The position numbers and the translations under genes were made by a program. A stretch of 47,432 nt of DNA from Phycisphaerae bacterium (GTDB taxonomy: Bacteria > Planctomycetota > Phycisphaerae > UBA1845 > Fen-1342), in the NCBI GenBank assembly GCA_022072445.1, contig JAJVHV010000008.1:1-47432 (forward strand). Reading direction: 5' to 3'. Each line of letters opens with the position of its first letter. The stretch's first letter is position 1. Shown here piece by piece: positions 15,741-33,591 of the stretch. The notes beneath the pieces are model-generated. The model did no database searches. It was not told where the DNA came from and saw nothing but the letters and a program-made list of their open reading frames with translations.

Positions 15741-15758
15741 TTTCGTAGCGCCCCAGCC

Positions 15759-15978: not shown

Positions 15979-15980
15979 GA

Positions 15981-16206: not shown

Positions 16207-17244
16207 GACGCTGCCGTCGCCGTTCAGGTCGGCCAACATGCGGTCGCAGTGCGGCGCGAGGGCGTCGTAGGCCGCGTCGCCCATCACCGCCGCGATGAAC
16301 GGGTCGATGTCGAACGCGTTCACCCAGCGGTCGCAGTTCAGATCGCCCTTCTTCGGCGGGACGTAGCACGCCAGCCCGCCGGCGGTGACGAAACGGCTGT
16401 TGTAGATCAGCGCGGATTCGCCGCTGGGAACGTATACAGCGTACACGCCATCACCCTCGGTCACGGCATACAGCCTGTCGGGATCTTCGCAGAACGTAAT
16501 AGCGAAGTAGTTTCCACACGTGAAACCCGTTGACACAAGGCGGCGCGAGCTTGGGTCGACACCGTTGTAAGCGTGGATGGCGACGCCTGCACAATCCAAC
16601 AGCCATGTCGACACAAAGAGGTTGCCGAGCGGGTCGAATTCGATGCACGCGACTCTAGTCAAGTCGCCGAACCGCTCAATGCGACCCCATTGGTCCATTC
16701 GGTAGACCCCACCCCTTCCAATGTATACGTTGCCGTCGGGCCCCGACGTTACGGTGAAGAATGAGCCGTTCCCTATTTTTGTCGATGGCGGATGATCCGC
16801 CGGAAACTTCAGCAGCGCGTAGTAATAGTCGTCCGTGACGTAGAAGTTCCCCGCGCGGTCCCAGCCCAGCCCGTTGGATCCGATCGGCCCGCCGATGCCG
16901 TCGTTCGCGTCATGCGCCGTGGTCGCGTTGCCGGCAGGATCGATGTCCGCCACGCGCGCGTTCCAGTAGCTCAGAATGCGCAAGCGCTTCCCGTCCGGCG
17001 AAAAGCGCAGCCCCGTCAGGCCGCACAGTCCGTCGCTGCGATCCGCCAGAAACCAACTCTCGCCGCTCTCAGGATCGAACTCCACCACGTAGTCCTTGCG
17101 CGTCGCGGCACACATTTCGCCCCCGCCGCGGTACTCGGGCAGGAAGAGATGGCCGCGCTTGAAGCCTTCAGTATTGGGTTGCGCACGGACAGAAGCAGAA
17201 AACGAACAGGCGATGCAGACAATCGTGAATCGAGACCATGTCAT
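16156..17244 (-). CDS. Secreted beta-propeller protein with C-terminal dockerin-like domain (paralogue A)
   Basis: A 362-residue exported protein from ATG 17244 with signal peptide MTWSRFTIVCIACSFSASVRAQ. Residues ~25-300 look like a beta-propeller of the SMP-30/NHL sort, with repeated FSPDGKRLRILSYW, GLGWDRAGNFYVTDDYYY, SGPDGNVYIGRGG and IEFDPLGNLFVSTW strands. The last ~60 residues hold two Ca-binding dockerin-type repeats: GDLNCDRWVNAFDID and ADLNGDGSVNAFDID. Planctomycetes carry many such dockerin-like tails without known cohesin partners, so a surface or complex-targeting role is inferred. The next gene is its tandem paralogue. Confidence 0.88.
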   Translation of the reverse strand: MTWSRFTIVCIACSFSASVRAQPNTEGFKRGHLFLPEYRGGGEMCAATRKDYVVEFDPESGESWFLADRSDGLCGLTGLRFSPDGKRLRILSYWNARVADIDPAGNATTAHDANDGIGGPIGSNGLGWDRAGNFYVTDDYYYALLKFPADHPPSTKIGNGSFFTVTSGPDGNVYIGRGGVYRMDQWGRIERFGDLTRVACIEFDPLGNLFVSTWLLDCAGVAIHAYNGVDPSSRRLVSTGFTCGNYFAITFCEDPDRLYAVTEGDGVYAVYVPSGESALIYNSRFVTAGGLACYVPPKKGDLNCDRWVNAFDIDPFIAAVMGDAAYDALAPHCDRMLADLNGDGSVNAFDIDAFIELLTKTP

Positions 17245-17269
17245 GCTGGTTATTCTACCCGCAGCGACA

Positions 17270-17495
17270 GCCCCTCATCCGAGCCCCTCATCCGAGCCCC
17301 GACCATGAAGGCGACCGAGGAGGGAGCCTGAATGGAGGGGTTTCGTAGCCCAGCAGGAGTGTCAACCGTATTCGACGGTCGTTCGCGCTGTGCCAGGAAA
17401 CCGCTTGCTGACGCGCGCGGCTCGCTTGGCGTCCGCGCCTCGGCCTACGGCGTCTTCGTCAGCAGCTCGATGAACGCGTCGATGTCGAACGCGTT
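17270..17495. repeat. 226-bp direct repeat, right copy
   Basis: It is base-for-base identical to 15981-16206, while the upstream coding parts of the two paralogues differ clearly. This points to recent conversion or unequal crossing over at the 3' ends. Confidence 0.92.
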
Positions 17496-18542
17496 CACGC
17501 TGCCGTCGTCGTTGAGGTCGGCCAGGCTGCGGTCGCAGTGCGGCGCGAGCACTTCGTAGGCCGCGTCGCCCATCACCGCCGCGATGAATGGGTCGATGTC
17601 GAACGCGTTCACCCAGCGGTCGCAGTTCAGGTCGCCCTTCTTCGGCGGGACGTAGCAGGCAATGCCGGTGCCCCTGTATATGGAATACTCCTCGCTCTCC
17701 CGGATCGTCGTGATTCCGCCTGTGGGCACGTCGAGCGCGTAAACGCCCTCGGCATCGGTCGCGTAGAGCGTGTTGGAGTCCTCGCAGAACGTGATCGCGA
17801 AGAAGTCCGAGCAGTTAAAGCCGGTCGTCACCACGCGCCGCGACGTCGGATCAAGCCCGTCGTAGGCGTGAATCACGTAGCCTTGACAGCCCGTGATGCT
17901 CGTCGCCACGAAGAGGTTGCCGTGCGGGTCGAACTCAATGCACGCGACATTTGTAAGATCGCCGAATCGACGCCGCGTGCCGATCGGGTGGAGCGCGAAG
18001 ACGTAGCCACCCCAGCCCGAGAGGTAGACGTTCCCGTCTGGTCCGGCTGTCAGCGTGTAGTAAGAGGCGAATCCCAATCGCTGCTTCGGCGGCGCGTCGC
18101 GGGGGAATTTGAGAAACTCATAGTAATAGTCGTCGGTGACGTAGAAGTTTCCCGCGTGGTCCCAGCACAGGCCGTTCGCCCCGATCGGTCCGCCGATGCC
18201 ATCGTTCGCGTCATACGCTGTCGTGACGTTGCCAGCAGAATCAATATCGGCGATGCGCGCGTTCCAGTAGCTCAGCACGCGCAGGCGCTGGCCGTCAGGT
18301 GAGAAGCGCAGCCCCGTCATGCCGCACAGGCCGTCGCTGCGGTCGGCCAGTTCCCAGCGCTCACCCGTCAGCGGATCGATCTCGTCTACCCAGTTTTTGC
18401 GGTTCGCGTTGCACATCTCGCCGCCACCGTACCGCTGTGTGAAAATGTGCCCAGATACGAACCCATCACTATTCGGCTGGGCGAATCCGACCGGCGTGGC
18501 CGAGCAAGCGACTAGGAGAATCGTGAACAGCGTCCGGCGCAT
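17445..18542 (-). CDS. Secreted beta-propeller protein with C-terminal dockerin-like domain (paralogue B)
   Basis: A 365-residue paralogue of the gene at 16156-17244, same orientation, from ATG 18542 (MRRTLFTILLVACSATPVGFAQ signal peptide); a TTG at 18551 is a less likely start. Propeller strands correspond one to one with paralogue A (FSPDGQRLRVLSYW, GLCWDHAGNFYVTDDYYY, AGPDGNVYLSGWGG, IEFDPHGNLFVATS) and the dockerin pair is nearly identical (GDLNCDRWVNAFDID, ADLNDDGSVNAFDID). The third strand region and the part before the dockerin differ most. Function unknown; probably surface-exposed. Confidence 0.88.
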   Translation of the reverse strand: MRRTLFTILLVACSATPVGFAQPNSDGFVSGHIFTQRYGGGEMCNANRKNWVDEIDPLTGERWELADRSDGLCGMTGLRFSPDGQRLRVLSYWNARIADIDSAGNVTTAYDANDGIGGPIGANGLCWDHAGNFYVTDDYYYEFLKFPRDAPPKQRLGFASYYTLTAGPDGNVYLSGWGGYVFALHPIGTRRRFGDLTNVACIEFDPHGNLFVATSITGCQGYVIHAYDGLDPTSRRVVTTGFNCSDFFAITFCEDSNTLYATDAEGVYALDVPTGGITTIRESEEYSIYRGTGIACYVPPKKGDLNCDRWVNAFDIDPFIAAVMGDAAYEVLAPHCDRSLADLNDDGSVNAFDIDAFIELLTKTP

Positions 18543-18555
18543 GATTGACAATTAT

Positions 18556-18853: not shown

Positions 18854-18994
18854 ATGAAGCACCATGTGCTCGTAATCCAATTCGCGCTCGCCATCATCGC
18901 AATGAGCGCCACCCCCATCGTGGTCGCACAAGACCCATCCGTCGGGGGTGAGTGGTATCCGAACACCACCGACGGCTCTCCATGCCCACGATGA
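18854..18994 (+). CDS. Signal-peptide fragment of the copper-radical oxidase, out of frame with its body
   Basis: A 46-residue open frame with a strong ribosome binding site (AAAGGAG at 18841-18847). It begins with a good signal peptide (MKHHVLVIQFALAIIAMSA, cleavage after VAQ). The next residues, VGGEWYPNTTDGSP, look like the first blade of galactose-oxidase-like proteins, which usually start with a G-W motif. The frame stops at 18992. The oxidase body continues in the -1 frame from about 18982. So this is the 5' end of the same gene, separated by a one-base loss (or two-base gain), a sequencing error, or a frameshift signal. Confidence 0.7.
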   Translation: MKHHVLVIQFALAIIAMSATPIVVAQDPSVGGEWYPNTTDGSPCPR

Positions 18995-20484
18995 TGATCC
19001 ACGGTAACGTCCTCAAGACCGGCCGCGTCTTATTCGTTTCGAAGGATGAGATCATCGAAAACGCGGCCTTTGTATACGTTCCCGCCGCAGACGGGAAAGG
19101 CGCTGGCACAACGTATGACGTGCCGGAGGCTCCGTGGCCGATTTTCTGTTCTGGTCACTCACAAACTACCGATGGACGCATATTCTTTGCTGGCGGCGGC
19201 GGAGGAAGTGAGAGCGGCACGACTCGCTGCAACATCTTCGATCCCGATGTCAACGGCGGCGCTGGCGACTGGGTCGCGCTTAGCGCATTCGACTCGACGA
19301 TGACGCTGCCCGGAGGTTGTGACGATACGCAGCCTCGCAACGACCCGCGCTACTACCCCACCTGCACCACGCTCGCCAGCGGCAAGATTCTCGTCACCGC
19401 CGGCCGCACCACGCTCAGCAACCCGGATTGCCATCCGGCCGACGCGCCGCGCATCTTCAACCCCAATGCCGCGCTTGGTAGCCAATGGACTGTGATCTTT
19501 GACGCGCCGTTCGCCGACGTCGCCAAGCCCATCCAATGGTATCCGTTCATGTTCCAGCTCTCCAACGGCCCCATCTTCATGGGCGGCGGAAGGTACTTCG
19601 GCATCAGCGGAGACCAGATCGGCGCGCAGTCGCTCAGGCTCGACGCCAGCGGCGGCTCGTGGGAAAGTCCATCCACGCCGCTCCTGGCCGACTTCTACGG
19701 CGGCTCGGCCGTCATGTATCGGCCCGATCTGGTCATCAAGACCGGCCACGCCGCCAACTCCGACCTTGGCGACGGCAAACAGGCGCAGAAGATCAACGCC
19801 ATCGGGACAGACGGATGGCAAGAACTACCCGCGATGGATTACAAGCGCGGCGACCACTACCTTCTGGTGTTGCCCGATGGAAAGGTCCTGGCGGTCGGCG
19901 GCGCAGACGATGAAGGCGCGCGTGTTCCCGAACTGTTCGACCCCGACAACGAGTCCGCCGGGTGGGTGGACATGGCCACCATGCCGCGACAACGGGTCTA
20001 TCACTCGTCCGCCGTCGTGCTGCCCGACGGACGCGTCCTGATCGGCGGCGGCGACTCCGACACTGATGACAAGAGCGCTCACCTGTACTCCCCGCCCTAC
20101 CTCTTCGACGAGGACGACAACAACATCAACGACGTTTCCGGCGTGCGGCCGCAGATCACACAGGCCCCGGCGGCGATCGGCTATACCAAGACTTTCAATG
20201 TCTACAGCGACCAGGTGTCGTCCATCACGCGTGTGACGCTGGTGCGTCTCGGCTCGTCCACGCATTCGTTCGACATGAATACCCGCTTTCTGGAGCTCAG
20301 CTTCACGGTGCCATCCACCGGGACACCGCGCCTGAAGGTCACCGCGCCGGCGCACGGCTTCATGGCCCCGCCGGGATACTACATGCTCTTCATCCTGAAA
20401 CCTACGCCCGCGCAGGACAATCGCCCGAACGTCTGGTACCCTTCGCGCGGACACATTCTGAAACTGGAGATGCAGTTGTTGTAG
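18982..20484 (+). CDS. Galactose/glyoxal oxidase-like copper radical oxidase (AA5-like), frameshifted from its signal peptide
   Basis: A 500-residue body with kelch-type propeller blades and a C-terminal DUF1929 domain. Numbering from ATG 18982, the copper-radical site is complete: C56 in FCSGH and Y125 in RYYPT (the Cys-Tyr cofactor pair), Y340 and H341 in RVYHSS, and H428 in STHSFDMN. Repeated LPDGKVLAVGG and LPDGRVLIGGG blades are clear. Family enzymes oxidise primary alcohols or aldehydes with O2, making H2O2, outside the cytoplasm. ATG 18982 has no ribosome binding site; true initiation is probably at 18854 in another frame. Because all catalytic residues survive, the frameshift is either very recent, an error, or recoded. 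A terminator-like hairpin follows. Confidence 0.87.
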   Translation: MPTMMIHGNVLKTGRVLFVSKDEIIENAAFVYVPAADGKGAGTTYDVPEAPWPIFCSGHSQTTDGRIFFAGGGGGSESGTTRCNIFDPDVNGGAGDWVALSAFDSTMTLPGGCDDTQPRNDPRYYPTCTTLASGKILVTAGRTTLSNPDCHPADAPRIFNPNAALGSQWTVIFDAPFADVAKPIQWYPFMFQLSNGPIFMGGGRYFGISGDQIGAQSLRLDASGGSWESPSTPLLADFYGGSAVMYRPDLVIKTGHAANSDLGDGKQAQKINAIGTDGWQELPAMDYKRGDHYLLVLPDGKVLAVGGADDEGARVPELFDPDNESAGWVDMATMPRQRVYHSSAVVLPDGRVLIGGGDSDTDDKSAHLYSPPYLFDEDDNNINDVSGVRPQITQAPAAIGYTKTFNVYSDQVSSITRVTLVRLGSSTHSFDMNTRFLELSFTVPSTGTPRLKVTAPAHGFMAPPGYYMLFILKPTPAQDNRPNVWYPSRGHILKLEMQLL

Positions 20485-20522
20485 CCAGGTCGCAAACGCC
20501 GAACCGCCGATGAATTCACAAA

Positions 20523-20560
20523 AGCCTGGCGCGGGCAGATACCCCGGCCAGGCTCGTTTT
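20523..20560 (+). terminator. Intrinsic terminator after the copper radical oxidase
   Basis: AGCCTGGC (20523-20530) and GCCAGGCT (20547-20554) form a stem, extended by an inner G/C stretch, and are followed by CGTTTT. It lies about 40 nt after the stop. Confidence 0.6.
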
Positions 20561-20625
20561 CGTCGCTCCCTTTTCGGTGCCTTGCTCCCTTTGTTCCTTT
20601 GTTGTCCTGTTTCCTTGTCTTTGCT

Positions 20626-21828
20626 TCACACAAACAGCGCCGACCCCACGTTCTCGTCATACGTCTCGCCATCGAGCTGGAAGATCGGCTTGGGGTCGAA
20701 GCCCAGCCAGTCGCGGATCGCGCTGCTGAACACCGCCCGGAAGTCCACGTAATACGGCAGATTGTCTTCGTTCAGGTCCGAGGACGTCACAGCCTGCCCG
20801 TGCAGCCCGCCGTTGACGCGCGGCCCCACCAGCAGCATGTGGTTGCCGTGCCCGTGGTCGGTGCCGGGGCTGCCGTTCTCGCGGTTGCGGCGGCCGAACT
20901 CGGTGTAGAACAGCACCGCCGTGCGGTCCCACAGTCCCATCGCCTTCATGTCGTTGACGAACTGCTCGAACTCGTCGTTGAGCTCGGGGAACAGCCGCTG
21001 GTTCGCCGTGAGCTGCGAGCCGTGCGTGTCGAAGCCGCCGTACTCGACCTTGAAGACTTGCGTGCCGAGCTTGGCGCTGGCGAGCTGCGCCGCCCGGTAG
21101 AATTCGCCGCGCGACGCGCCCGTCGAGACGAATCCTTCCGTCTTGGCGCGAATCTCAGTGCCGAGCTGATCGATCTTGCTGTACGTGTCCAGCAGCGCCT
21201 GCTGCGTCGGCGTGCGGTTGGTCTTCAGCCGCGCCAGCCGGCCAAACGCGTCCTGGGCCGCCTGCCGGTAGGTCTGGTCCGGATAGCCGTAACGCGTCGG
21301 ATCGCCGATCGTCTGCGTACTCAGCACGCCGAAAGGCAGGTTGAAATACGTCTTGCGCAGCCGCTCGTACCACGGCGCCGCCGTCCCGGCGCCCGAGCCG
21401 AGGTTGCGCACGCCGAACTCGTAGATTTCCTGGCTCTCGAAGTGCGAGCCGTTGCCCTTGGGATAGGCCACCTGCTGAACGATCGCGAGCTGCCGCTGCG
21501 CGTACAGCGCGTTCATGAACGGGCAGTGGTTCGTGATGCCCAGATCGGGATGATCGGAGAGCGGCGTCACGTCGGCGGCCCGCAACGCGAGCTGCGGCCG
21601 GTTCGACTGATACGTCGGATTCGTGAACGGCGCCAGAAAACTCAGCGCGTCCATTCCGCCGTTGAGCTGGCACAACACCAGAATGTTCCCCGTCCCCCCG
21701 CTCGATTGCGCGTAGCTGCGCGCAACCATGTTCAGGATCGGGTCGGCGAAGGCCAGCGCGCCCAGGCTCTTGCCGGCGTTGGCCAGAAAGCGGCGACGAC
21801 TGAGTTCGTTGCATTCACGACAGCTCAT
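20626..21828 (-). CDS. DUF1501 family Tat-exported protein
   Basis: A 400-residue protein from ATG 21828, with CAGGAG 6-10 nt upstream. The N-terminus SRRRFLANAGKSLGALAFADP is a Tat signal. DUF1501 features include GNILVLCQLNGGMDALSFLAPF, a GGFDTHGSQ motif, VLFYTEFGRRNRENGSPGTDHG and NHMLLVGPRVNGGLHG; the DTH and DHG motifs place it near the alkaline-phosphatase/sulfatase fold. Planctomycetes usually encode it next to a DUF1800 protein, as here. The biochemical role of the pair is unknown. The 257-nt gap to the DUF1800 gene consists mostly of tandem repeats. Confidence 0.92.
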   Translation of the reverse strand: MSCRECNELSRRRFLANAGKSLGALAFADPILNMVARSYAQSSGGTGNILVLCQLNGGMDALSFLAPFTNPTYQSNRPQLALRAADVTPLSDHPDLGITNHCPFMNALYAQRQLAIVQQVAYPKGNGSHFESQEIYEFGVRNLGSGAGTAAPWYERLRKTYFNLPFGVLSTQTIGDPTRYGYPDQTYRQAAQDAFGRLARLKTNRTPTQQALLDTYSKIDQLGTEIRAKTEGFVSTGASRGEFYRAAQLASAKLGTQVFKVEYGGFDTHGSQLTANQRLFPELNDEFEQFVNDMKAMGLWDRTAVLFYTEFGRRNRENGSPGTDHGHGNHMLLVGPRVNGGLHGQAVTSSDLNEDNLPYYVDFRAVFSSAIRDWLGFDPKPIFQLDGETYDENVGSALFV

Positions 21829-21876
21829 ACCATGCTCCTGTGTAGAGCAGCCGCCCCCGGCTGCACTCCCCACGCT

Positions 21877-22071
21877 TCCGGCTGCACTCCCGATCACCCG
21901 CCTGCGTTCTGCATTCTGCATTCTTCATTCTGCATTGCCGTTCCGGCTGCATTCCCGATCACCCGTCTGCGTTCCGCATTCTGCATTCTTCATTCTGCAT
22001 TGCCGTTCCGGCTGCACTCCCGATCACCCGCCTGCGTTCCGCATTCTGCATTCTTCATCTGCATTGCCGTC
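21877..22071. repeat. 65-bp tandem repeat, three units
   Basis: Each unit contains CCGGCTGCACTCCCGATCAC (one copy CATTCCC), CGCCTGCG or a variant, and the inverted form of the GCATTCTGCATTCTTCATTC interspersed repeat. Units start about 65 bp apart; the last has lost one base in its TTCATTCTG part. It fills the gap between the DUF1800 and DUF1501 genes. Confidence 0.85.
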
Positions 22072-22085
22072 GCAGCGCCCATCGA

Positions 22086-23948
22086 CTACCGTCCGATCAC
22101 GCGCTCGTCCATCGCCATCAGCCGGATCATCTCGTACACGTGCCGCGCCTGATAATCCGGGTCCTCCAGGTGAAACGCGCGCCACCCGCCCTGGTCGAGC
22201 ACTTCCATGTAGATGTCCTTCTCCTCCTGCGTCAGCGGCAGGTGAAACACGCCCGCGATCGCGTCCACGATCTGCGGCCGAACCTCGCGCTGGCTCCAGT
22301 TCTCGACCGCCGGCAACAGGTGGAACGGCACGTCCTCGGTGTGATTGGGGCCATAATCCATCGTCCGCCCCAACGCCTTGACGCGGCTCAAGATCCACTG
22401 GTCCTGCACCCAGCCGAGATCCTCGCTCCAACCCTCGACACCCGGCGGGTTCAACAGATCCTGCCCCGCACTCGACAGGTCGTCGGCCAGTTGGTCAAAG
22501 AGGTAACCTTGCGAGTCCTCGCTGTAGACGTGCATGTCCAGCGTCCGCGCCACGCCGACAAAGTGCTCGACCGGCGTGGTGACCTGGTTGCCGCGCGCGT
22601 CGGGCGAAAAGAGCGCCTGGCTGACCAGGATTTTCCGGACCAGCGGCGCGATCTGGAAATTCGACGCGACGAACGAATCGGCCAGCTCCTTCACCAGCGC
22701 GTCGGACGGATGATCGTGCACGAAGAACGCGAACAGGTTGCGGGCCACGTACTCGGACGCTTCCGGCTGCGCCAGCGTCAGATCGACCACGCTCTGGTAC
22801 GAATAATTGGCCGGTCCGCTCGTGCGGCCCGCGAAGATCATCTTGTTCGTCTCGTCATGATTCAGCAGATCGTAAATCGGACGCGTGTCCTGCTCCCAGT
22901 CGCGCAGCAGCGTGATGCCGGTAAACGCCCGCGCGCTCTCGCGGATATCGGCCTCGGTGTACAGCCGGTCGCGGCCCAGCGTGAACAGTTCCCAGAACTC
23001 GCGCGCGTAGTTCTCGTTCGGACTGGTCTTCGGACTGTTCGCGCCGTCCAGCCAGATCAGCATCAGCGGATCGAGCGTCAGGTCGATCAGGAACTGGCGA
23101 TAATCGCCCAGCGCGTTCCGCCGCAGCATCTGCCAGTGAAACACGCCCAGGTTGCGGTCGCGCCAGTCCGAAATGACGCGCTGCGAGGTGGCGAAGCGGT
23201 CGTGCCAGAACATCGCCATGCGTTCGTGCAGCGGATTGGGACTTTCGATCAAGTGCACCAGCCAGCGTTTTGGGATGTTCTCTTCATACGAATCCGCCAG
23301 CAGCGTCACAGCTTCCGGAACCGGCTTGGCCGTCAACAGATCGTCAACCGTCGCGAAAAGTCCGCGCTGCACGGCGGCGGCCACCTGCTCGGGCGTCGCG
23401 CCCAGCGCGGCGCGGCGAAGCAGGTGATACGCCTCGTCCGAAGTGAGCGAGTTGCGATACTCGGACGCGGCCTGCGGATGGCCGGCGAACTCGGACGAAA
23501 CCTCGACGATGAACGCCGCCTCGGCGGACGCTTCGCCGCCTCTGCCGTCGCGCACCACGAGCGCCAGCTTGACTTCGTTGTTTTCGACGACGTAGGGCGT
23601 CGTGAACGAAACAGCGACGTCCGAAGTCGAGGAGAACGTGCCGGTCGGGCCGCTCACCTGCGACCACTCGAACTCCAACGCGTCGCCGTCCGGATCGCTC
23701 GATGCAGACGCATCGAGCGACATGGCGACTCCGGGACGAATGCCGGCGTTGGGTGAGTATGAGAAGCTGGCGGTGGGGTTGTCGTTGAAGATTGTGCCGC
23801 CGCTGCTCCCGCCGCCGAACAATCCGCCGAGCACGCCGGAGTTTTCGTCGTCGCCGCCGGCGTTATCGCCCTGCGGGCAGCCGCCGAGCAGTGCGAGGGA
23901 GAGGATTGGCAGGGCCAGAACGAGGCGCAGCACACCCACGCGATCCAT
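22086..23948 (-). CDS. DUF1800 lipoprotein with PKD-like domain
   Basis: A 620-residue protein from ATG 23948, preceded by GGAGA. The lipobox is LLGGC in LSLALLGGCPQG. A Gly/Ser/Asn linker is followed by a PKD-like domain (ASFSYSPNAGIRPGVAMSLDASASSDPDGDALEFEWSQ). The DUF1800 core then begins with TSDEAYHLLRRAALGATPEQV and contains HERMAMFWHDRFATS, NYAREFWELFTLGRD, EADIRESARAFTG and PPGVEGWSED, all family hallmarks. It lies upstream of the DUF1501 gene on the same strand and would be co-transcribed unless the tandem repeat interferes. A role in surface or vesicle-associated processing is speculative. Confidence 0.92.
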   Translation of the reverse strand: MDRVGVLRLVLALPILSLALLGGCPQGDNAGGDDENSGVLGGLFGGGSSGGTIFNDNPTASFSYSPNAGIRPGVAMSLDASASSDPDGDALEFEWSQVSGPTGTFSSTSDVAVSFTTPYVVENNEVKLALVVRDGRGGEASAEAAFIVEVSSEFAGHPQAASEYRNSLTSDEAYHLLRRAALGATPEQVAAAVQRGLFATVDDLLTAKPVPEAVTLLADSYEENIPKRWLVHLIESPNPLHERMAMFWHDRFATSQRVISDWRDRNLGVFHWQMLRRNALGDYRQFLIDLTLDPLMLIWLDGANSPKTSPNENYAREFWELFTLGRDRLYTEADIRESARAFTGITLLRDWEQDTRPIYDLLNHDETNKMIFAGRTSGPANYSYQSVVDLTLAQPEASEYVARNLFAFFVHDHPSDALVKELADSFVASNFQIAPLVRKILVSQALFSPDARGNQVTTPVEHFVGVARTLDMHVYSEDSQGYLFDQLADDLSSAGQDLLNPPGVEGWSEDLGWVQDQWILSRVKALGRTMDYGPNHTEDVPFHLLPAVENWSQREVRPQIVDAIAGVFHLPLTQEEKDIYMEVLDQGGWRAFHLEDPDYQARHVYEMIRLMAMDERVIGR

Positions 23949-24139
23949 GTGGAATCTCCGTGCGTCTGAAAAACACGAGCCCGGCGCAGCGCCGCAAGGC
24001 CGTGGACGAAGGTCGACGGTCGTCGACATTCGGCGGCCCGCGGCGCAGTATCAGGAAGCGTGAGTCCCCCGGATAAGAGGTCGGAAAAGTGCGTAGCGGA
24101 GTCAACCCAGATTGCCAGGGACTCCTGGCTTACTCCGAC

Positions 24140-24719: not shown

Positions 24720-25745
24720 TCAGGGAGTACGCCCGTGGCTGAGGGCCCGCCAGCGATCGAGCGTGGCGCGGGCGCGGCCCTCGTCGAGCGCGGCGCGGGC
24801 CTGGGCGGCGCCGTCGGTCCAGTCGCGGGCGCGGCCGGCGACCCACAGCGCAGCGGCGGCGTTGAAGACCGTCATGTCGCGGGCCGGGCCGGGCTCGCCC
24901 GAGAGGACCCGCTCGATGACGGCCGCGCTCTGCGCCGCGCTGTCCACGAACACCGTCTCAAGCGGAGCGGGCGCGGCGCCGATGACCGACGGATCAACCG
25001 TTTCGTATGCGAGCGTCGCGCCGTCCCAGCGCGCCAGCCGGCTGGCACCGGCGATGCTGAGATCGCAGAGGCCCTCCAGTCCGTGCACGACCATGGCGCG
25101 CGTCGCGCCGAGACGGCGCAGACATTCGATCAGCAGCGCGACGTGCTGCGGCCGGCTGACGCCCATCAACTGCCGCTGCACGAACGCCGGATTGGTGAGC
25201 GGGCCGACGAGGTTGAAGATCGTCCGCACGCCCAGGGCCTGCCGCACGGGTGCGGCGTGCTTCATGGCCGGATGCTGCCGGACCGCAAAGAGAAACGCGA
25301 CGCGGCAGTCCGCCAGGCAACGTTCGAGCGTGGGCACGTCGGCCTCGATGTTGATGCCCAGCGCGGCCAGGCCCTCGGCCGACCCGCTGGGGCGCGCCGC
25401 GCTGCGATTGCCGTGCTTGGCGACGGTGGCGCCGGCCGCGGCGGCGACGATCGCGACGGCGCTGGAGACGTTGAACGTCGGCTTGCCGTCGCCGCCCGTG
25501 CCGCAGGTGTCGATGGCGTCGGCACCGTCGGGCGCGCGGACGCGCGCGACGCGCTGCCGCATGGCGCGGGCCGCGCCGACCAGCTCGTCGACGGTTTCAC
25601 CCTTCGCGGCCAGCGCGGCGAGGATCGCGGCCAGCACGCGTTCGTCGACCCGGCCGTCCATGACCTGCTCGAAGAGCGCGTGCGCGTCGCGGTCGGAGAG
25701 GTCGCGTCGCGCGATCAGGTGGCGTAGTGCGTCAGCGGGCAACAT
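24720..25745 (-). CDS. trpD: Anthranilate phosphoribosyltransferase
   Basis: A 341-residue cytosolic enzyme of tryptophan biosynthesis that joins anthranilate to PRPP. Start ATG 25745 (MLPADALRHLIARRDLS) fits the usual N-terminal helix; longer frames upstream are Pro/Arg-rich non-protein sequence. Signature motifs are all present: DTCGTGGDGKPTFNVSS, ATVAKHGNRSAARPSGSAE (KHGNR loop), FNLVGPLTNPA and VVHGLEGLCDLS. Usual length. It is not next to other trp genes in this window and lies divergent from the cobalamin riboswitch. Confidence 0.95.
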   Translation of the reverse strand: MLPADALRHLIARRDLSDRDAHALFEQVMDGRVDERVLAAILAALAAKGETVDELVGAARAMRQRVARVRAPDGADAIDTCGTGGDGKPTFNVSSAVAIVAAAAGATVAKHGNRSAARPSGSAEGLAALGINIEADVPTLERCLADCRVAFLFAVRQHPAMKHAAPVRQALGVRTIFNLVGPLTNPAFVQRQLMGVSRPQHVALLIECLRRLGATRAMVVHGLEGLCDLSIAGASRLARWDGATLAYETVDPSVIGAAPAPLETVFVDSAAQSAAVIERVLSGEPGPARDMTVFNAAAALWVAGRARDWTDGAAQARAALDEGRARATLDRWRALSHGRTP

Positions 25746-25819
25746 GGGTGATGGCGGCCTCTTGAGTCGTGGACGCCGCGGCGGCCGGGGCGCTCGCGCC
25801 GGCCGCGCGGATTTTTGTC

Positions 25820-25848
25820 TTGACAGCGCCGGCTCTTCAGGGTAACAG
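25820..25848 (+). promoter_or_regulatory. Candidate sigma-70 promoter for the riboswitch transcript
   Basis: A perfect -35, TTGACA (25820-25825), is followed after 17 bp by TAACAG, a weak -10 (25843-25848). Transcription would start just before the riboswitch aptamer, which suits its placement. Confidence 0.45.
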
Positions 25849-25861
25849 AATAGCAACGATT

Positions 25862-26046
25862 GCTGGTGTCCGGCGCTGGGAGCGCCGGAAGAATAGGGAA
25901 TCCGGTGCGAATCCGGAACGGTCCCGCCGCTGTGATCGGGTGCAGTTCGTCGCAGGCGTCATTGGCCGCGAGGCTGAGAAGACGCGACGAAGCGAACCGG
26001 CTGAAGTGAGAGGCCGGAGCAGCCCGAGAGTCAGAAGACCTGCCAG
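25862..26046 (+). ncRNA. Cobalamin (B12) riboswitch
   Basis: The conserved core is clear: GGGAATCCGGTGCGAATCCG, then CGGTCCCGCCGCTGTGATCG, and the 3' B12-box AGTCAGAAGACCTGCC near 26030-26045. Order and spacing match the cobalamin riboswitch family. It lies on the plus strand, divergent from trpD and upstream of the PEP-CTERM/beta-propeller/prepilin-like gene set. Family knowledge: cobalamin binding normally lowers expression of the downstream genes. The downstream leader is long (about 380 nt), so the expression platform is not obvious. Confidence 0.9.
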
Positions 26047-26426
26047 GTGATCGTCAAGGTAGAGGTTGCCTTCGCGGTAGAGGCAGACCGACATGTCAAT
26101 TTCTCTCGAAAGCGCTTCCCCCCATCCGGTTTTTCGTCTGTGCTCGAATTGCGCCTCACGGATGCGGTGTGTTCGCACTTCGGCGGAATTGACACGTCAT
26201 CGCACACGGCGGAGATGAAAGAAGCCCTGCCCCATGCGACGCGTCCGGTGGAGTCCGGGCGCGTCGCGGGGCGGGAAATTACAGGGCTCACTGGCGAGAC
26301 CTGCTCTCCGAGGTGATCGAATTGGTTCGTAGCGCTTGCAACGAACCGCACTGCTGGCAGCTCCGCGCTCATGGCGACCTCACGGCCGTCCGACCTGCGT
26401 GGTCGGATCTGGAAGGAGAGGAGCCC
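26047..26426 (+). other. Long leader between the riboswitch and the first gene
   Basis: About 380 nt lie between aptamer and start codon. There are small imperfect hairpins (for example 26063-26090) and one very strong hairpin (26229-26272). An open frame at 26047-26316 starts with GTG, has no ribosome binding site and was not accepted as a gene. Confidence 0.55.
26229..26272 (+). promoter_or_regulatory. Strong hairpin in the riboswitch leader
   Basis: GCCCC, GCGACGCG and CCGG pair in order with CCGG, CGCGTCGC and GGGGC around a TGGAGT loop, giving 17 pairs with small internal loops. It is 155 nt before the first start codon and could be an expression platform or a processing site. No U-tract is seen. 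Confidence 0.45.
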
Positions 26427-27254
26427 ATGCTGTCACGCGCTGCGCAACGCCTCTTTTTTTCAACGCTCTGTGCGAGCGCCTTTGCCCCGCAAACGTGGAG
26501 TTTCGACATCGGCGACCCGTGGGCCGATCGCGTGGTGGCCTATCATGGCGGCGTCAATCCCACGCTGCCCTACACCGATCCACTCACGTCGGTTGGATCG
26601 CCGGAGCGCTTCACCGGCGAGGGCGTGTTTCCGAGCGTCGTTTCGGTCTACAGCGGCGCGTACGGCGTCGATGAGATCGTCAGCGTCGGCGAGGGCGGCT
26701 GGCTGACCGTGGCATTCGATGAGCCGATCACCGACGATCCGTCGCACGCTTACGGCGTCGACCTGATCGTGTTCGGCAACGGCTTTCTGTTCGATTCGGA
26801 CGGCGACGACTTGGCCGATAGCGCGTTTGACGAGGGGCCGTTCAGCATCTCGGTCAGCGACGACAACGTCGTTTATCACACGCTGGGCGTCGACTTCAAC
26901 GACGCGGTGTTCCCGGTGCAGGGGTACAACGACTCCGGACCGTTCGATCCGGTGCCGGGCAATTCGCCTTCAGATTTTCTCAAACCGATCAACCCGGCGC
27001 TGGGGCTGAGTGATCTTTTCGGCTTGAGCTACGCGCAGATTGTGGCGTTGTATGACGGATCCGGCGGCGGAATCCCCGTGGACATCGCCGCGTCCGGATT
27101 GTCGGCGGTGAACTACGTGCGGATCGACGTTCCGACGGACGATTTGCGCGACGTGAGCCCGGAAATCGACGCGTTCGCGGCGGTTCCGGAGCCTTCGAGT
27201 GTTGTGTTTACCCTGGCGGCAGGTTTCGTGCTCCGCCGGAGGGGAGCGCGTTAA
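26427..27254 (+). CDS. PEP-CTERM surface protein under a cobalamin riboswitch
   Basis: A 275-residue exported protein from ATG 26427 with a strong ribosome binding site (AAGGAGAGGAG at 26413-26423). The signal peptide is MLSRAAQRLFFSTLCASAFA. The body is a beta-rich domain: GEGVFPSVVSVYSGAYG, VDLIVFGNGFLFDSDGDD (possibly calcium-binding) and YAQIVALYDGSGGGIPVDIA with NYVRIDV. The C-terminus VPEPSSVVFTLAAGFVLRRRGAR is a PEP-CTERM sorting tail (PEP motif, helix, basic end). This links it to exosortase processing and the cell surface. It is not a known cobalamin protein, yet lies directly downstream of the riboswitch. The start choice is secure. Confidence 0.88.
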   Translation: MLSRAAQRLFFSTLCASAFAPQTWSFDIGDPWADRVVAYHGGVNPTLPYTDPLTSVGSPERFTGEGVFPSVVSVYSGAYGVDEIVSVGEGGWLTVAFDEPITDDPSHAYGVDLIVFGNGFLFDSDGDDLADSAFDEGPFSISVSDDNVVYHTLGVDFNDAVFPVQGYNDSGPFDPVPGNSPSDFLKPINPALGLSDLFGLSYAQIVALYDGSGGGIPVDIAASGLSAVNYVRIDVPTDDLRDVSPEIDAFAAVPEPSSVVFTLAAGFVLRRRGAR

Positions 27255-27259
27255 TCGCT

Positions 27260-27294
27260 CGCGACCGGGGCGTGCGTCCGCCGCCCCGGTTGCG
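27260..27294 (+). promoter_or_regulatory. Intergenic hairpin inside the riboswitch operon
   Basis: A 13-bp stem with one mismatch (27260-27272 with 27282-27294) sits 5 nt after the PEP-CTERM stop and 24 nt before the next start codon. It may tune expression of the downstream genes or protect the mRNA end. Confidence 0.4.
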
Positions 27295-27318
27295 ACGATA
27301 ACGTCGCGGGAGGGTCCA

Positions 27319-28740
27319 ATGACCACGACATCGACATCGTTGATTCGACCAATTGTGACGTGCCGCACGGTGTTGGCGCTGCTGCTGACCGTCGTCGCTC
27401 CCCGGTTGGGCGCGGCGGGCGACTGGACACACCTGGCCGGCGACCGGCAGCGCAGCGGCCTGGCCGAGCAGGCGCCGCGCACGCTTCAGGAGACCGTCTG
27501 GAACGCGACGCCGCTGGCCGACGAGGAACTCATCGGCATGAGCAGTCCGGTGGCCTTTGGCGGGCGCGTCTTCATTGCGGCGCGGGTCTACAGCGGTTTT
27601 ACGCACGTGAACAACGCGATCATCGCTTTCCACGCCGGCACGGGTGCGCGGCAGTGGCGGACGCTTCTGGCGGCCGACGTGTTCGACAGTTGGTCGAGTC
27701 CGGCGGTCGACGTACGGAATGGCTCGGTGGTCGTGGTCTCCGGGAAGCGCGTGTATGCGCTCAACGTGGCCAACGGCGCGCAGCGCTGGGAGCGGCTCCT
27801 GACGCGGAACTTGGTGAACGCGTCGCCGGTGGTGACCGACGATCTGATGAGCGGCGTGTCGCCGGCGAATCGCGTGTTCGTGACCGACTTCGATGGGTTC
27901 AACGCGGGCGGGTCGCTGCACGCGATCAACGTTGACTCGCGCGTCGCGGGCGACAATCCGTACGACCCGGGTCAGGTGGTCTGGTCGGTCGGGCAGGTGG
28001 GTTCGAGCGGCAATTCGCCCGCCTACGAAGATGGCGTCGTGTATGTCGCCAGCGTGGGCGGGCTGGTCCGCGCACTGAACGCGTCAAGCGGCTCGGTTAT
28101 CTGGCAGCGCACCATCAGCTTCGCGGGCGATCCGCAGTTCTCAGGGTTTTACGGCGGCGTGTGCGTGCGCAACGGAGCCGTCTTTCTGGCGAGCTACATC
28201 TTTGACGGCACCGGCGACGTCGCCGACCTGTACAAGCTGGATGCGGCGACGGGCGACGTGGTCTGGTCGATTCCGTGCGAACGGACGGTCTCGATTCCGG
28301 TCGTGACCGACGACGGCCGGATCTTCCTCCCAGCCGGACTTGAAGCCCCCGGCTCGGCGATCAAGGTGCAGGCGTTCCGCGACGACGGCGTCAGCGCGAC
28401 CAAGCTCTGGGACACCGACGTCGACTCGGCCGGCGGGCTGGTCGTGGGCGGCTGGAACTACCACGCGGCGTTTGACGATGACCGGCTCTACGTCGGCACG
28501 CCGGACCCGTTCGCCTTCTTCCAGCCCTACGTCGAGATGAACGTGCTGGACGTGACGCGGACGCCGGATGATCCGTTCTTCGTCGCGGCGACGCAGGCCG
28601 GATCGGGGGGCACGCCGGCGATCGCGTCGGGGATTGTCTACTCGGTCGGAGTCGACGGGCTCGTTGCCGTGACGTCGACGGCGCGGATCACGCAGAAGGA
28701 ATCGCTCGGCGCCATCGACCGCGACTGGGTGGAACCATGA
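27319..28740 (+). CDS. Secreted PQQ-like beta-propeller protein
   Basis: A 473-residue exported protein from ATG 27319 with ribosome binding site GGGAGGG. A signal peptide ends near RLGAAG. Repeated blades of PQQ-like type follow: VYALNVANGAQRWERLL, VVYVASVGGLVRALNASSGSVIWQR, LYKLDAATGDVVWSI, and similar strands through the whole protein; the fold is probably a seven- or eight-bladed propeller. No PQQ dehydrogenase catalytic residues are recognised. In Bacteroides, BtuG is a surface beta-propeller that binds cobalamin and belongs to riboswitch-controlled operons. That is only an analogy here. It overlaps the next gene by 4 nt (ATGA). Confidence 0.87.
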   Translation: MTTTSTSLIRPIVTCRTVLALLLTVVAPRLGAAGDWTHLAGDRQRSGLAEQAPRTLQETVWNATPLADEELIGMSSPVAFGGRVFIAARVYSGFTHVNNAIIAFHAGTGARQWRTLLAADVFDSWSSPAVDVRNGSVVVVSGKRVYALNVANGAQRWERLLTRNLVNASPVVTDDLMSGVSPANRVFVTDFDGFNAGGSLHAINVDSRVAGDNPYDPGQVVWSVGQVGSSGNSPAYEDGVVYVASVGGLVRALNASSGSVIWQRTISFAGDPQFSGFYGGVCVRNGAVFLASYIFDGTGDVADLYKLDAATGDVVWSIPCERTVSIPVVTDDGRIFLPAGLEAPGSAIKVQAFRDDGVSATKLWDTDVDSAGGLVVGGWNYHAAFDDDRLYVGTPDPFAFFQPYVEMNVLDVTRTPDDPFFVAATQAGSGGTPAIASGIVYSVGVDGLVAVTSTARITQKESLGAIDRDWVEP

Positions 28741-29531
28741 GCCGCCGGGCGTTCACGCTGCTCGAACTGCTGGTCGCCGTCGCGGTGATCGCCGTGCTGG
28801 CGGCCGTGCTGCTGCCGTCGCTGTCGGCGGCCCGCGAGCAGGCGAAGCGCGTCATCTGCGCGACGCGCCTGGCGCAGTTGGCGCGCGGCTTTCACATGTA
28901 TGCCGGCGAGTTTCGCGGGCGCGTCATGCCGCTCTGGTACGCCGAGGCGGGCACGGCCGGCGGCGGGGCGCCGGTGTTCTGGTGGGGCACGAACGACGCA
29001 GCGGGCGTCGATCACACGCGCGGCTTTCTGTGGCCGTATCTGGCGAGCGAGCTTCGGCACGATGGCCTGTATGAATGTCCGCGGCAGCCGTGGGGGACGT
29101 ACGTGCCGCAGGGGTCGGCGTTGTCGCTCACCAGCACCTATGGCTACAACGGCTATTACCTCTCGCCGGCCAACACGCCCGGCTGGTCGAGCCTGATCGG
29201 GCATCGGCCCTGGCAGAACGTCGACGTGATGAAGCTGCCGCAGCGCGTCTTCTCATTTGCGGATACGGCGCTCGACACCGGCGGCGACCTGTCCACGAAC
29301 GCGGCGCTCCTCGATCCGCCCATGCTCTTTCAGACCCGCGGCCGCTGGCGCATCAACGGCAGCCCGACGACCTCGTTCCGGCACGGCGGAAAGGCGTTGG
29401 TCGGCTTCGTCGACGGGCATGTCGACGTCGTGCTCCCCGCGGCCGAAGCGCTCACCTCGCCGCACCTGAACATCGGCTCGGCGAGCGTCACGAACGACCC
29501 GGGATATGTGCCCGACTGGGAATCGTGGTAG
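28737..29531 (+). CDS. Prepilin-like protein with DGH motif, last gene of the riboswitch operon
   Basis: A 264-residue protein beginning MSRRAFTLLELLVAVAVIAVLAAVLLPSL, a type IV prepilin/pseudopilin N-terminus with the FTLLE motif cut by prepilin peptidase. The body ends with FRHGGKALVGFVDGHVDVV, the DGH motif typical of the numerous planctomycete DUF1559-like pseudopilins. Its ATG overlaps the preceding stop by 4 nt, so it is translationally coupled to the beta-propeller. Pseudopilins of this type are exported and sit in the envelope; most are uncharacterised. A link to cobalamin is inferred only from position. Confidence 0.88.
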   Translation: MSRRAFTLLELLVAVAVIAVLAAVLLPSLSAAREQAKRVICATRLAQLARGFHMYAGEFRGRVMPLWYAEAGTAGGGAPVFWWGTNDAAGVDHTRGFLWPYLASELRHDGLYECPRQPWGTYVPQGSALSLTSTYGYNGYYLSPANTPGWSSLIGHRPWQNVDVMKLPQRVFSFADTALDTGGDLSTNAALLDPPMLFQTRGRWRINGSPTTSFRHGGKALVGFVDGHVDVVLPAAEALTSPHLNIGSASVTNDPGYVPDWESW

Positions 29532-29555
29532 GCCAGGCGGCCCGAAGCGCGACGC

Positions 29556-29561
29556 TATAAT
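29556..29561 (+). promoter_or_regulatory. Candidate -10 box for cinA
   Basis: A perfect TATAAT ends 20 nt before the cinA start. No good -35 is seen at the usual distance. GAGGAC just before the start codon serves as a ribosome binding site. Confidence 0.4.
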
Positions 29562-29581
29562 CGCGCGCTCCGAGGACGCAC

Positions 29582-30832
29582 ATGCGACGCGCGTGGATCA
29601 TCTCCATCGGCACCGAGCTGACGCTCGGCCAGACCGTCGATACGAATTCGGCGTGGCTTTCGCGCGAGCTGGCGGCGCTGGGCATCCGGCCGCTGCGGCA
29701 CCTGACGCTGCCGGACGAGCTGCCCGACATCGCCGAGGCTCTGGCCGGAGCCTGCCGGCACTGCGAGCTGGCGCTGGTGACGGGCGGTCTGGGGCCGACC
29801 GCCGATGACCTGACGCGCGAGGCGCTGGCCGCGGTCGCCGGCGTGCCACTCGAGCTGAACGCGGCGAGCCTGCGCGAGATCGAAGCGTTTTTTGCGGCCC
29901 GCGGGCGGACGATGTCGGAGGCGAATCGCTCGCAGGCGCTCTGCCCGCGCGGCGCCGCGATGATTTCGAACTCGTGCGGCACGGCGCCGGGAATTCACGC
30001 GCGCATCGGCGACTGCGAACTGTTCGTCATGCCCGGCGTACCATCCGAAATGACCAGCATGTTTGCCGCGTACGTCGCGCCGCGGATTCGCGCCCTGGGC
30101 GCTGGCTCGGTGCTGCGCAGCCGCGTGGTGCAGACCTTCGGCATGGGTGAATCCGACCTGGGGGCGCGCATCCGCGACCTGATGCAGCGCGGGCGCAACC
30201 CCGAGATCGGCACCACCGCGGCGCTGGGGGTGATCGGCGTGCGGATCAACGCAATGGCCGCGGACCCGGCGGCGGCGGACGCGCTGCTCGACCAGGCCGA
30301 GGCCGAGCTGCGCGCCCGGCTCGGTCCGCTCGTCTATGGAATCGACGATCAGACGTTGGCGGGTGCGGTCGGGCAGTTGCTGCGCGACACCGGCCGCACG
30401 CTCTCGACCGCGGAGTCGTGCACCGGCGGGCTGATCGGCAAGCTGCTGACCGATCAGCCGGGCAGCAGCGCGTATTTCGTGGGCGGGACGGTCGCGTACA
30501 CCAACTCGGCAAAAACCGCGCTGCTGGGCGTCGACGCGCGGCTGATCGCGCAGCACGGCGCGGTCAGCGAACCGGTGGTTCGGCAGATGGCCGCCGGCGC
30601 GCAGCGCGCCCACGCCAGCGACTACGCCGTCGCGGTCTCGGGCATTGCCGGACCGGATGGCGGCACGCCCGAAAAGCCGGTTGGGACGGTCTGTATCGCG
30701 GCGGCGGGCCTCGAACGGACCGACGCGCGAACCTTGCGCCTCGGCGCCGACGCGTCGCGCGACGCAATCCGCCAGCGGGCCGCGACCGCGGCGCTCAATG
30801 CCCTGCGCCTCATGCTGCTGAACCAGACGTGA
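29582..30832 (+). CDS. cinA: CinA family protein (nicotinamide-nucleotide amidohydrolase)
   Basis: A 416-residue two-domain protein. The N-terminal COG1058/MoCF-like domain shows IISIGTELTLGQTVDTNSAWLSREL and ALVTGGLGPTADDLTREALA, with FVMPGVPSEM. The C-terminal PncC-like amidohydrolase domain shows TAESCTGGLIGKLLTDQPGSSAYFVGG and VSGIAGPDGGTPEKPVGTV, the active-site region. Family enzymes recycle nicotinamide mononucleotide to nicotinic acid mononucleotide; the N-terminal part of some homologues acts on ADP-ribose. The length is normal for full-length CinA. It has its own TATAAT just upstream and so is probably transcribed separately from the riboswitch operon. Confidence 0.95.
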   Translation: MRRAWIISIGTELTLGQTVDTNSAWLSRELAALGIRPLRHLTLPDELPDIAEALAGACRHCELALVTGGLGPTADDLTREALAAVAGVPLELNAASLREIEAFFAARGRTMSEANRSQALCPRGAAMISNSCGTAPGIHARIGDCELFVMPGVPSEMTSMFAAYVAPRIRALGAGSVLRSRVVQTFGMGESDLGARIRDLMQRGRNPEIGTTAALGVIGVRINAMAADPAAADALLDQAEAELRARLGPLVYGIDDQTLAGAVGQLLRDTGRTLSTAESCTGGLIGKLLTDQPGSSAYFVGGTVAYTNSAKTALLGVDARLIAQHGAVSEPVVRQMAAGAQRAHASDYAVAVSGIAGPDGGTPEKPVGTVCIAAAGLERTDARTLRLGADASRDAIRQRAATAALNALRLMLLNQT

Positions 30833-32173: not shown

Positions 32174-33529
32174 TCAGGGATTCGAGGCGGGTTGCGTCGC
32201 GGCCGGTTCGACGCCGAGCAGAGCGTCCCACGTCTTGTCGTTGTGCCAGTACTCCAGCCGCCGGCCGTTCAGAAACACCGCCGGCACGCTCGTGACCTTC
32301 AGCCTTCCACCCAGTTCGCAATCCTCGCGGACGCGGTCGGCGACGGCCGGTGAGCCGCGCGCCGCCGCGAATGCGGCGCGGTCTGCGCCCAGCGCGGCGG
32401 CCCAGTCGTCGAACTCCTCCAGCTCCAGGTCATTCTGACGTTCGTAGAGAACCCCGCGCAGCTTCTCGAGCAGCGCGCCTCCACCGACGATGCGGGCCGC
32501 CTCGGCCGCGCCCGCGGCGCGACACGCCGCAGGATGCGAAACGCGCGTCTGCGACGGATTGCAGCGCGAGTCAAGCGGGAAGTGGCGAATCGCGACGCGA
32601 AGCCGGCTTGGGTGCCGCGCGACAACCTGCCGGATGCGCTCGTGCAGCGTCCGGCAGGTTGGGCACTCGAAGTCCGAGAAGACGACGACCGTGTTGGGCG
32701 CGGTCGGATCGCCGACGAATGGCTCGTCCTCGCGCAGCGGAATCTCGTGCGCCGGCTCGCGGAAGAAGTCGAGCCGGGCGTAGTCGGCGTCATTGATGAT
32801 GTCGTTCAGCTTCCGCTGCGTCACGCCGATCGTCTGCGCCTGCATTCCGAGCGTGGCGTAGCTGACCTGAAGGTAGGCCATCAGCAGGGCGGCCAGCATC
32901 GACGCCAGCGCCAGCGATCGGCTCGGGTGCGGGTTGAATGCCGGGCGCACCGGCCGGCGCCACGGAAATGCCGCCAGCGTCAGCAGCGCCAGCAGCAGAT
33001 TGATGACGTGCGTCGCCAGACAGCCCTGGCAGATTCGCCGCAACTGGAATGCCATGACTTGCGTCAGGTCGAGCGACACGGTCGCCCCGATCAGCACGAC
33101 ACATGCGATCGGCACGTGCCACCAGCGCCGGTCGAACGTCGGCGGTCCGACGAAGGCGTACCAGACGCCGGCCAGGGCGAAATAGGCCATGCCCAGCGCC
33201 GCCCAGGGCATGCCCGTGGCGCGGGTCGGGTCACCGCTGCGACCGGCACTCGAGAAGACACGCGCGCGGTGCGAACGCAGCACGGAGAGACAATCGCCCT
33301 CGCCGGTCGGGCCGCACTTCGCCGCGATCAGCGGGTTGGTCGCGTCGACGCCGAGCGAGAGCCGCAGCAGATCGACGCTGATCCACCAGCCGGCGGCGGC
33401 GAGGATGACAGCCGCCCAGCGAATCCAGCGACGCGGGGCGGGCGCGGACGCTTCGGGCGGAACGGGCGGAACGGGCGAAGCGGGGCGGGCAGGCGGGGCA
33501 CTCGAAGCCGGCGACGGCAGGTCACTCAT
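32174..33529 (-). CDS. VKOR-DsbA-like fusion, disulfide bond formation
   Basis: A 451-residue membrane protein from ATG 33529. After a Pro-rich tail of ~30 residues come hydrophobic segments of a vitamin K epoxide reductase domain. The loop cysteine pair is KCGPTGEGDCLSVL, and the active CXXC is CQGC in LRRICQGCLATHVIN. A linker leads to a thioredoxin/DsbA-like domain with CPTC in VVVFSDFECPTCRTLHERIR and a cis-Pro-type segment LKVTSVPAVFLNG. Family knowledge: the VKOR half reoxidises the DsbA half using quinone, replacing DsbB. Both halves look intact. It would form disulfides in the many exported Cys-containing proteins here. The 24 residues after CPTC include two extra cysteines in a loop. 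Confidence 0.92.
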   Translation of the reverse strand: MSDLPSPASSAPPARPASPVPPVPPEASAPAPRRWIRWAAVILAAAGWWISVDLLRLSLGVDATNPLIAAKCGPTGEGDCLSVLRSHRARVFSSAGRSGDPTRATGMPWAALGMAYFALAGVWYAFVGPPTFDRRWWHVPIACVVLIGATVSLDLTQVMAFQLRRICQGCLATHVINLLLALLTLAAFPWRRPVRPAFNPHPSRSLALASMLAALLMAYLQVSYATLGMQAQTIGVTQRKLNDIINDADYARLDFFREPAHEIPLREDEPFVGDPTAPNTVVVFSDFECPTCRTLHERIRQVVARHPSRLRVAIRHFPLDSRCNPSQTRVSHPAACRAAGAAEAARIVGGGALLEKLRGVLYERQNDLELEEFDDWAAALGADRAAFAAARGSPAVADRVREDCELGGRLKVTSVPAVFLNGRRLEYWHNDKTWDALLGVEPAATQPASNP

Positions 33530-33591
33530 GCGTGGGTTTCCGATCCGAGTCGTTCGACGCGACGGCCATCGGCCCATCGGCGGAGCGCGCG

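Follow-up and report, generated by a model that had tools for sequence, protein, structure and literature searches.

In the 47,432-nucleotide stretch of Phycisphaerae bacterium DNA considered here (assembly GCA_022072445.1, contig JAJVHV010000008.1; "the window", meaning the whole stretch analysed), a cobalamin riboswitch is followed by three genes, here called A, B and C, that encode a PEP-CTERM-like protein, a beta-propeller and a pseudopilin. The unit is probably a cell-envelope operon for corrinoid capture, repressed by B12, a reading to which a probability of about 0.73 is given. It is carried by a full-length riboswitch, an operon-like gene layout, conservation of the unit among related bacteria, the homology between A and a B12-binding domain, and the finding that a TonB receptor is not linked to it. 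The features of the locus are:

25848..26061, + strand: cobalamin riboswitch aptamer, RF00174 (covariance-model scan, 104.2 bits, E-value 4e-25, model positions 1-189 of 189)
26062..26426, + strand: leader from the aptamer to gene A, with a Shine-Dalgarno-like sequence, AAGGAGAGGAG, at 26413-26423
26427..27254, + strand: gene A, 275 amino acids from the ATG at 26427, predicted secreted PEP-CTERM-like protein and, by profile homology, a homologue of the BtuH cobalamin-binding domain
26775..26786, + strand: residues 117-120 of A (G-N-G-F motif), which align with BtuH2 Gly398-Asn399-x-Phe401, a site of phosphate and lower-ligand contacts
27180..27242, + strand: residues 252-272 of A, a putative PEP-CTERM-like sorting signal (PF07589, 14.7 bits; by eye VPEP, a hydrophobic stretch and RRR)
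27319..28740, + strand: gene B, PQQ/BamB-type beta-propeller (PF13360, PQQ_2, 2.3e-22)
28737..29531, + strand: gene C, pseudopilin with an H-X9-DG-like motif, member of a riboswitch-linked group (PF07963, 2.5e-6)

The first-pass annotation, made from the letters alone, had placed a cobalamin aptamer at 25862-26046. The covariance scan recovers it with slightly wider bounds as a full-length RF00174, its score standing against a gathering score of 31.5 bits, and it is the sole RF00174 match found in the window genome (5.25 Mb in 50 contigs, 96.7% complete). The gene order was also read correctly, including the overlap of 4 nucleotides between B and C; A and B are separated by 64 nucleotides. No sigma-70-like promoter was found in 25000-30000, which is weak evidence in Planctomycetota. 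The ATG of gene A is preceded by the Shine-Dalgarno-like sequence, and an RNA fold of the leader leaves that region partly paired. No terminator-like site was found on the + strand of the window leader, nor was an expression platform. Among the related leaders, terminator-like hairpins occur in 18 of 60 where mononucleotide shuffles predict 6.2, an excess that suggests, from a crude scan, the use of transcription termination in some of them.

Conservation was followed through 61 genomes: that of the window and those of 60 relatives from the same family and order. A direct RF00174 search finds 61 riboswitches in 56 of these genomes, with exactly one in 52 of the 56. On the riboswitch strand, the 9 kb that follow contain A at 43, B at 18 and C at 52 of these sites, as counted with a simple longest-open-reading-frame (ORF) caller that sometimes chooses antisense frames (e.g., in G032) and over-extends starts; by genome-wide hits of a C profile, 55 of the 61 have a strong C no more than 8 kb downstream. 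The linkage of the triplet to riboswitches in other genomes is borne out to these extents, and the recurrence of this kind of unit behind the riboswitch in most relatives makes it more than chance. Within the order, no partner of the riboswitch is as constant as the pseudopilin, which exceeds the propeller by 52 to 18 of 61. The relative G030, whose 9.3 Mb genome shows no MetH activation-domain match, carries three riboswitches, and a separate C accompanies each (loci L058, L064 and L119); G035 has two of each. Three of the six riboswitches without a strong C lie at contig ends (G029_C327, G060_C204 and G001_C202); the others are G013_C237, G018_C173 and the one in G031, where C is located elsewhere in the genome. 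Five genomes yielded no riboswitch: G005, G014 and G025 also have no strong C (best E-values 4e-38, 1e-32 and 2e-28), all three genes are present in G009, at the edge of a contig (L044), and G024 has C.

Approached from the side of A, homologues occur in 44 of the 61 genomes, and scans of A loci detect RF00174 at 17 of 20 and at 9 of 12. At six it was not seen: L012, L020 and L025 lie at or near contig ends, L022 and L031 have the riboswitch outside the scanned stretch, and the sixth, L033 from Christiangramia, was rejected as a probable chance match, with no A-like protein by eye on a contig without a cobalamin riboswitch.

None of the 61 riboswitches has a TonB plug domain within 8 kb downstream, a result that bears directly on whether the locus could be a standard BtuB-type B12 transport locus misread. 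Such loci are real in the phylum: in other planctomycete families at least 21 genomes have a plug within 1 kb downstream of the riboswitch, and at L160, L163 and L173, for example, the same riboswitch family is followed by a TonB receptor as the first long gene, in the place taken here by A, B and C. The three proteins, however, match no receptor or transporter family in Pfam or NCBIfam, and with the plug near none of the riboswitches of this order the BtuB-type reading is refuted here and scarcely merits belief.

The case for corrinoids beyond the riboswitch itself comes from A. The first-pass annotation held that no gene of the unit is a recognised B12 gene; this stands for the window protein searched alone, which matches no B12 family, but not for its membership of a B12-binder superfamily, which profile searches are needed to see. 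Profile A2 was built from 11 divergent A proteins that occupy the equivalent place behind the riboswitch (seven from family f8, three from the window's own family, f1, and one from f4). It matches the H-domain of BtuG1 (PDB chain 8blw_B, residues 390-519 and 612-659, E-value 1.9e-30) and BtuH2 (7biz_A, 2.3e-20), both from Bacteroides thetaiotaomicron. Profile A3, of window-type A proteins, is homologous to A2 (hhalign 99.9%, 5.4e-31) and aligns directly with a BtuH2 fragment (hhalign 92.9%, 3.8e-7), and the combined profile A6, which includes the window protein, again matches the BtuH domain (8blw_B, 2.2e-13; 7biz_A, 8.9e-8). Judged by these profiles, A belongs to the B12-binder superfamily through its globular domain.

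PMC8941943 reports that BtuH2 binds B12 with a picomolar dissociation constant, and that the contacts of Asn399, Gln333 and Phe401 are to the B12 phosphate, the ribose and the lower ligand, respectively. The counterpart of Asn399 is conserved in 44 of 45 A sequences and that of Phe401 in 28 of 45; the window protein retains both, as Asn118 and Phe120, and likely binds B12. Like A, the BtuH2 and BtuG1 proteins are secreted and under cobalamin riboswitch control, and in BtuG1 the H-domain is joined to a propeller. Unlike them, the A proteins end in PEP-CTERM-like or dockerin-like sequences and not in a lipoprotein anchor; BtuH is located with btuB, whereas the planctomycete unit has no adjacent TonB receptor and is partnered by a pseudopilin. 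The PEP-CTERM assignment of the window protein comes from a by-eye reading of its C-terminus (VPEP, hydrophobic stretch, RRRGAR), with scores under both curated cut-offs (Pfam 14.7 versus 20.7, NCBIfam 13.1 versus 16 bits); exosortase is matched in 57 of the 61 genomes, with two strong matches in the window genome.

Assignment of A to DUF4465, which is grouped with BtuJ among B12-binding proteins, was tried and rejected: there is no Pfam match at E-values up to 1, and none among the 11 A2-type relatives. The two are alike in being secreted, for A by prediction, and in their riboswitch-controlled loci, as PMC13398666 and PMC12751083 describe for BtuJ. One tested DUF4465 member comes from Mucisphaera calidilacus, a planctomycete of the class Phycisphaerae according to a paper title. 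Partner proteins scanned between riboswitch and C gave no DUF4465 match either.

The prepilin N-terminal motif of C is well supported (N_methyl, PF07963, 27.2 bits versus a cut-off of 21.2), and alignment of the C proteins reveals a prepilin signal, two invariant cysteines and an HX9DG region. These are traits shared with the DUF1559/H-X9-DG pseudopilins, from which C is distinct by its riboswitch tie and its scores. Window C remains below the cut-offs for DUF1559 (20.7 versus 23.3 bits) and H-X9-DG-CTERM (15.4 versus 19), and a relative at locus L174 of family f37 exceeds the former (43.6 versus 23.3). Genomes of this group hold between 7 and 39 pseudopilin matches, 39 being the ceiling of the scoring. 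With at most 39 candidates per genome scored against the C profile, the best listed match lies downstream of a riboswitch in 52 of the 60 genomes that have a listed hit, and the window's own riboswitch-linked C reaches 317 bits compared with 137 for the next listed pseudopilin of its genome. Since 19 of the 23 rows of the profile (A8) come from riboswitch units of the same 61 genomes, this comparison is partly circular, and the bit-score gap is its informative part. By these scores C is a riboswitch-tied group of its own, set apart from the other pseudopilins.

Propeller B has fared less well as a candidate corrinoid binder. The first-pass annotation likened it to BtuG, the Bacteroides surface propeller. 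Its N-terminus looks by eye like a signal peptide, and among the 60 best PDB hits its profile (A9) finds designed propellers, BamB (chain 8orr, 2.5e-18), PQQ enzymes and some others, with the BtuG1 chain 8blw_B absent; the analogy is dropped. The surface corrinoid capture proposed there thus survives through the riboswitch linkage and the BtuH homology of A, and not through a BtuG-like propeller. On the - strand at 16156-18551 the window also holds two adjacent proteins of 362 and 368 amino acids that match the propeller-B profile (8e-54 and 3e-47) and nothing in Pfam at 1e-4; their link to B is uncertain because the iterated-search profile is contaminated by A-containing ORFs.

The proteins encoded between riboswitch and C vary widely among genomes of the order. 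Besides A and B they include propeller-like proteins before A (alignment A5, mostly from f8), dockerin-tailed proteins and a family of about 240 amino acids (A4). Neither A4 nor A5 has a credible PDB match, and A4 has no useful Pfam match apart from PEP-CTERM and dockerin/EF-hand. Members of A4, with PEP-CTERM or dockerin-like ends, lie between riboswitch and C with no A detected in L105 (2405-3136), L106 (10671-11447), L107 (6792-7487) and L108 (8244-9026), and before A elsewhere; A4 is a candidate further corrinoid-related family.

This variability, together with the partial retention of the BtuH pocket in the window protein, might indicate that low B12 simply remodels the surface, inducing adhesive proteins and pili for attachment to B12 producers with A not itself a B12 binder. 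Both PEP-CTERM proteins and pseudopilins commonly serve in matrix and attachment. The homology of A to a domain of demonstrated B12 binding argues against such remodelling, as does the company that C keeps at one f37 locus, L174, described below, and it is regarded as improbable.

Beyond the order, a survey of 199 planctomycete genomes finds the riboswitch in 169 and a TonB plug in 147. Matches to profile A6 in 36 of the 199 cannot be read as a count of BtuH domains because dockerin-only matches, at profile positions above about 220, are included. From the A6 matches 20 A loci were chosen across the phylum with dockerin-only ones excluded, and RF00174 accompanies 17 of them (not L145, L150 and L159). 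At 20 riboswitch loci of other families (L160-L179) A occurs at none, and the five of these that belong to f37 have a C match as the first ORF above 110 amino acids on the riboswitch strand. Three of the five (L164, L166 and L174) encode, by eye, in addition to C a diphthamide-synthase-like ATPase (PF01902) and a small protein resembling a lipoprotein, together with DUF6580-like and BtuF-like proteins downstream of C. For L174 Pfam confirms the latter two, as a membrane protein of DUF6580 and a Peripla_BP_2 protein at the locus of C and its riboswitch. DUF6580 could form part of a B12 transporter. The remaining loci, inspected by eye, begin in some cases with TonB receptors and in several with neither (e.g., MetE-like at L179). 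None of the eight listed f37 genomes is among the 147 with a plug. Because the pseudopilin in the studied order and in f37 occupies the place held by TonB receptors in many other families, these findings suggest that it has replaced the receptor there.

CbiC, a gene of corrin-ring synthesis, is matched in 0 of the 61 genomes, and the MetH activation domain (Met_synt_B12), the one B12 enzyme searched for, is matched in 57, strongly in 54 and weakly in G014, G028 and G057. FecCD-type permeases are found in 59 genomes, 56 of them strongly (weak in G006, G017 and G050); in several genomes one lies by eye beside an ATP-binding cassette (ABC) ATPase, and a PF01497 binding protein is present at the one neighbour checked (L130). 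Genome G014, of a member of the family (97% complete), has no riboswitch, A or strong C, and its MetH-domain match is weak and partial; a co-loss of the unit with the need for B12 is a weakened interpretation, because G003, G030, G038 and G056 carry riboswitches without a MetH match.

On the corrinoid-capture reading, low cellular cobalamin would permit expression of the operon, the direction being that of cobalamin riboswitches generally. A would be secreted, sorted by its PEP-CTERM-like signal and bind cobamides through the BtuH-type domain, and B would be an accessory surface protein whose place is taken by other secreted proteins in other genomes. Since a plug lies within 8 kb of none of the 61 riboswitches and is unmatched in 37 of the 61 genomes, C is most likely built into a short pseudopilus of the type II secretion system (T2SS) or type IV pilus kind, which might export, display or reel in the capture proteins in cooperation with the general secretion or pilus machinery. 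Corrinoid reaching the periplasm would be imported by a FecCD-type permease and pass to methionine synthase and other B12 enzymes. As most of the related genomes lack a match to a TonB-type receptor, the unit is probably the route by which these bacteria catch B12.

How far the pseudopilus takes part in uptake is where opinions on the unit can divide. In the Gram-negative systems that are known, passage of B12 across the outer membrane proceeds by the TonB-dependent receptor BtuB. It is conceivable that A merely concentrates B12 at the surface, with crossing left to an unlinked porin or TonB receptor, and that C is a T2SS-type secretion helper for A and B with no part in uptake. The window genome does have one plug protein elsewhere (G000:C28), as at least one is present in 24 of the 61 genomes, and Bacteroides BtuH is likewise a mere accessory to BtuB according to PMC8941943 and PMC10404256. 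Set against this are the 37 genomes with no plug match, among them the single-contig genomes G023, G032 and G036, and the lack of any plug near the riboswitches, though passage through a porin is still conceivable. Capture of this limited kind is a serious possibility that we would still place clearly under even odds. Bolder, and offered tentatively as a somewhat unlikely extension, is TonB-independent B12 uptake in this order and perhaps in f37, in which the riboswitch-controlled pseudopilus would carry or retrieve A and its partners across the outer membrane in place of BtuB, as a vitamin-capture pilus. Pili-like fibres at the crateriform structures of planctomycetes bind dextran, and a link to uptake has been proposed, according to PMC5394234; the ligand there is a polysaccharide and not a vitamin, and the likeness to C is one of analogy.

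Several observations weigh against corrinoid capture. Profile A3 alone finds no PDB match with hmmsearch, and a fold prediction of A from an alignment with two relatives has a mean predicted local distance difference test (pLDDT) score of only 38.9. The equivalent of Gln333 is present in just 14 of 45 A sequences and not in the window protein, whose region corresponding to His476, Tyr510, Trp511 and Trp577 is shorter and by eye, in an unreliable alignment, has no evident counterpart of these residues. With BtuH-type corrin-side contacts not evident in the window type, B12 binding by A is held at likely and no higher. No A is detected in 18 of the 61 units; some of these reflect contig ends or ORF-calling failures, but several hold only C or else different proteins. 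The pairing of A with C is looser beyond the order, C being seen at 10 of the 20 phylum A loci, some of which are cut by contig ends. A TonB plug protein is encoded somewhere in the window genome and in 23 relatives, and the FecCD gene of the window genome has by eye no adjacent ABC ATPase or PF01497 binding protein. FecCD permeases import iron chelates too. The MetH domain is unmatched in G003, G030, G038 and G056, all riboswitch carriers and one with three, so that riboswitch and MetH domain do not strictly track one another.

No description of the riboswitch-A/B/C arrangement, and no paper on BtuH in Planctomycetes, was found among the papers listed by searches of the open-licence PubMed Central literature. 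If confirmed, the capture operon would be a testable candidate for vitamin scavenging by TonB-poor planctomycetes, would extend the BtuH-type domain past the gut bacteria where it was first described, and would give a likely purpose to one of the many pseudopilins of the phylum.

A trpD-like gene lies upstream of the riboswitch on the opposite strand. On the other side cinA, 50 nucleotides past C, does not appear in the 40 largest clusters of neighbouring genes and is not counted as part of the unit. Farther away, tandem arrays occupy 15751-15985 (a 55-nucleotide unit repeated 4.3 times with 99% matches) and 21876-22070 (a 65-nucleotide unit, 3.0 copies, with heptamer runs such as CTGCATT); GAATGCA heptamers occur at 2742-2776. 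A galactose/glyoxal-oxidase-like protein in the region 18952-24029 adjoins an opposite-strand pair of DUF1501 and DUF1800 proteins, and 32174-33577 encodes a protein with VKOR and DsbA-like thioredoxin domains.

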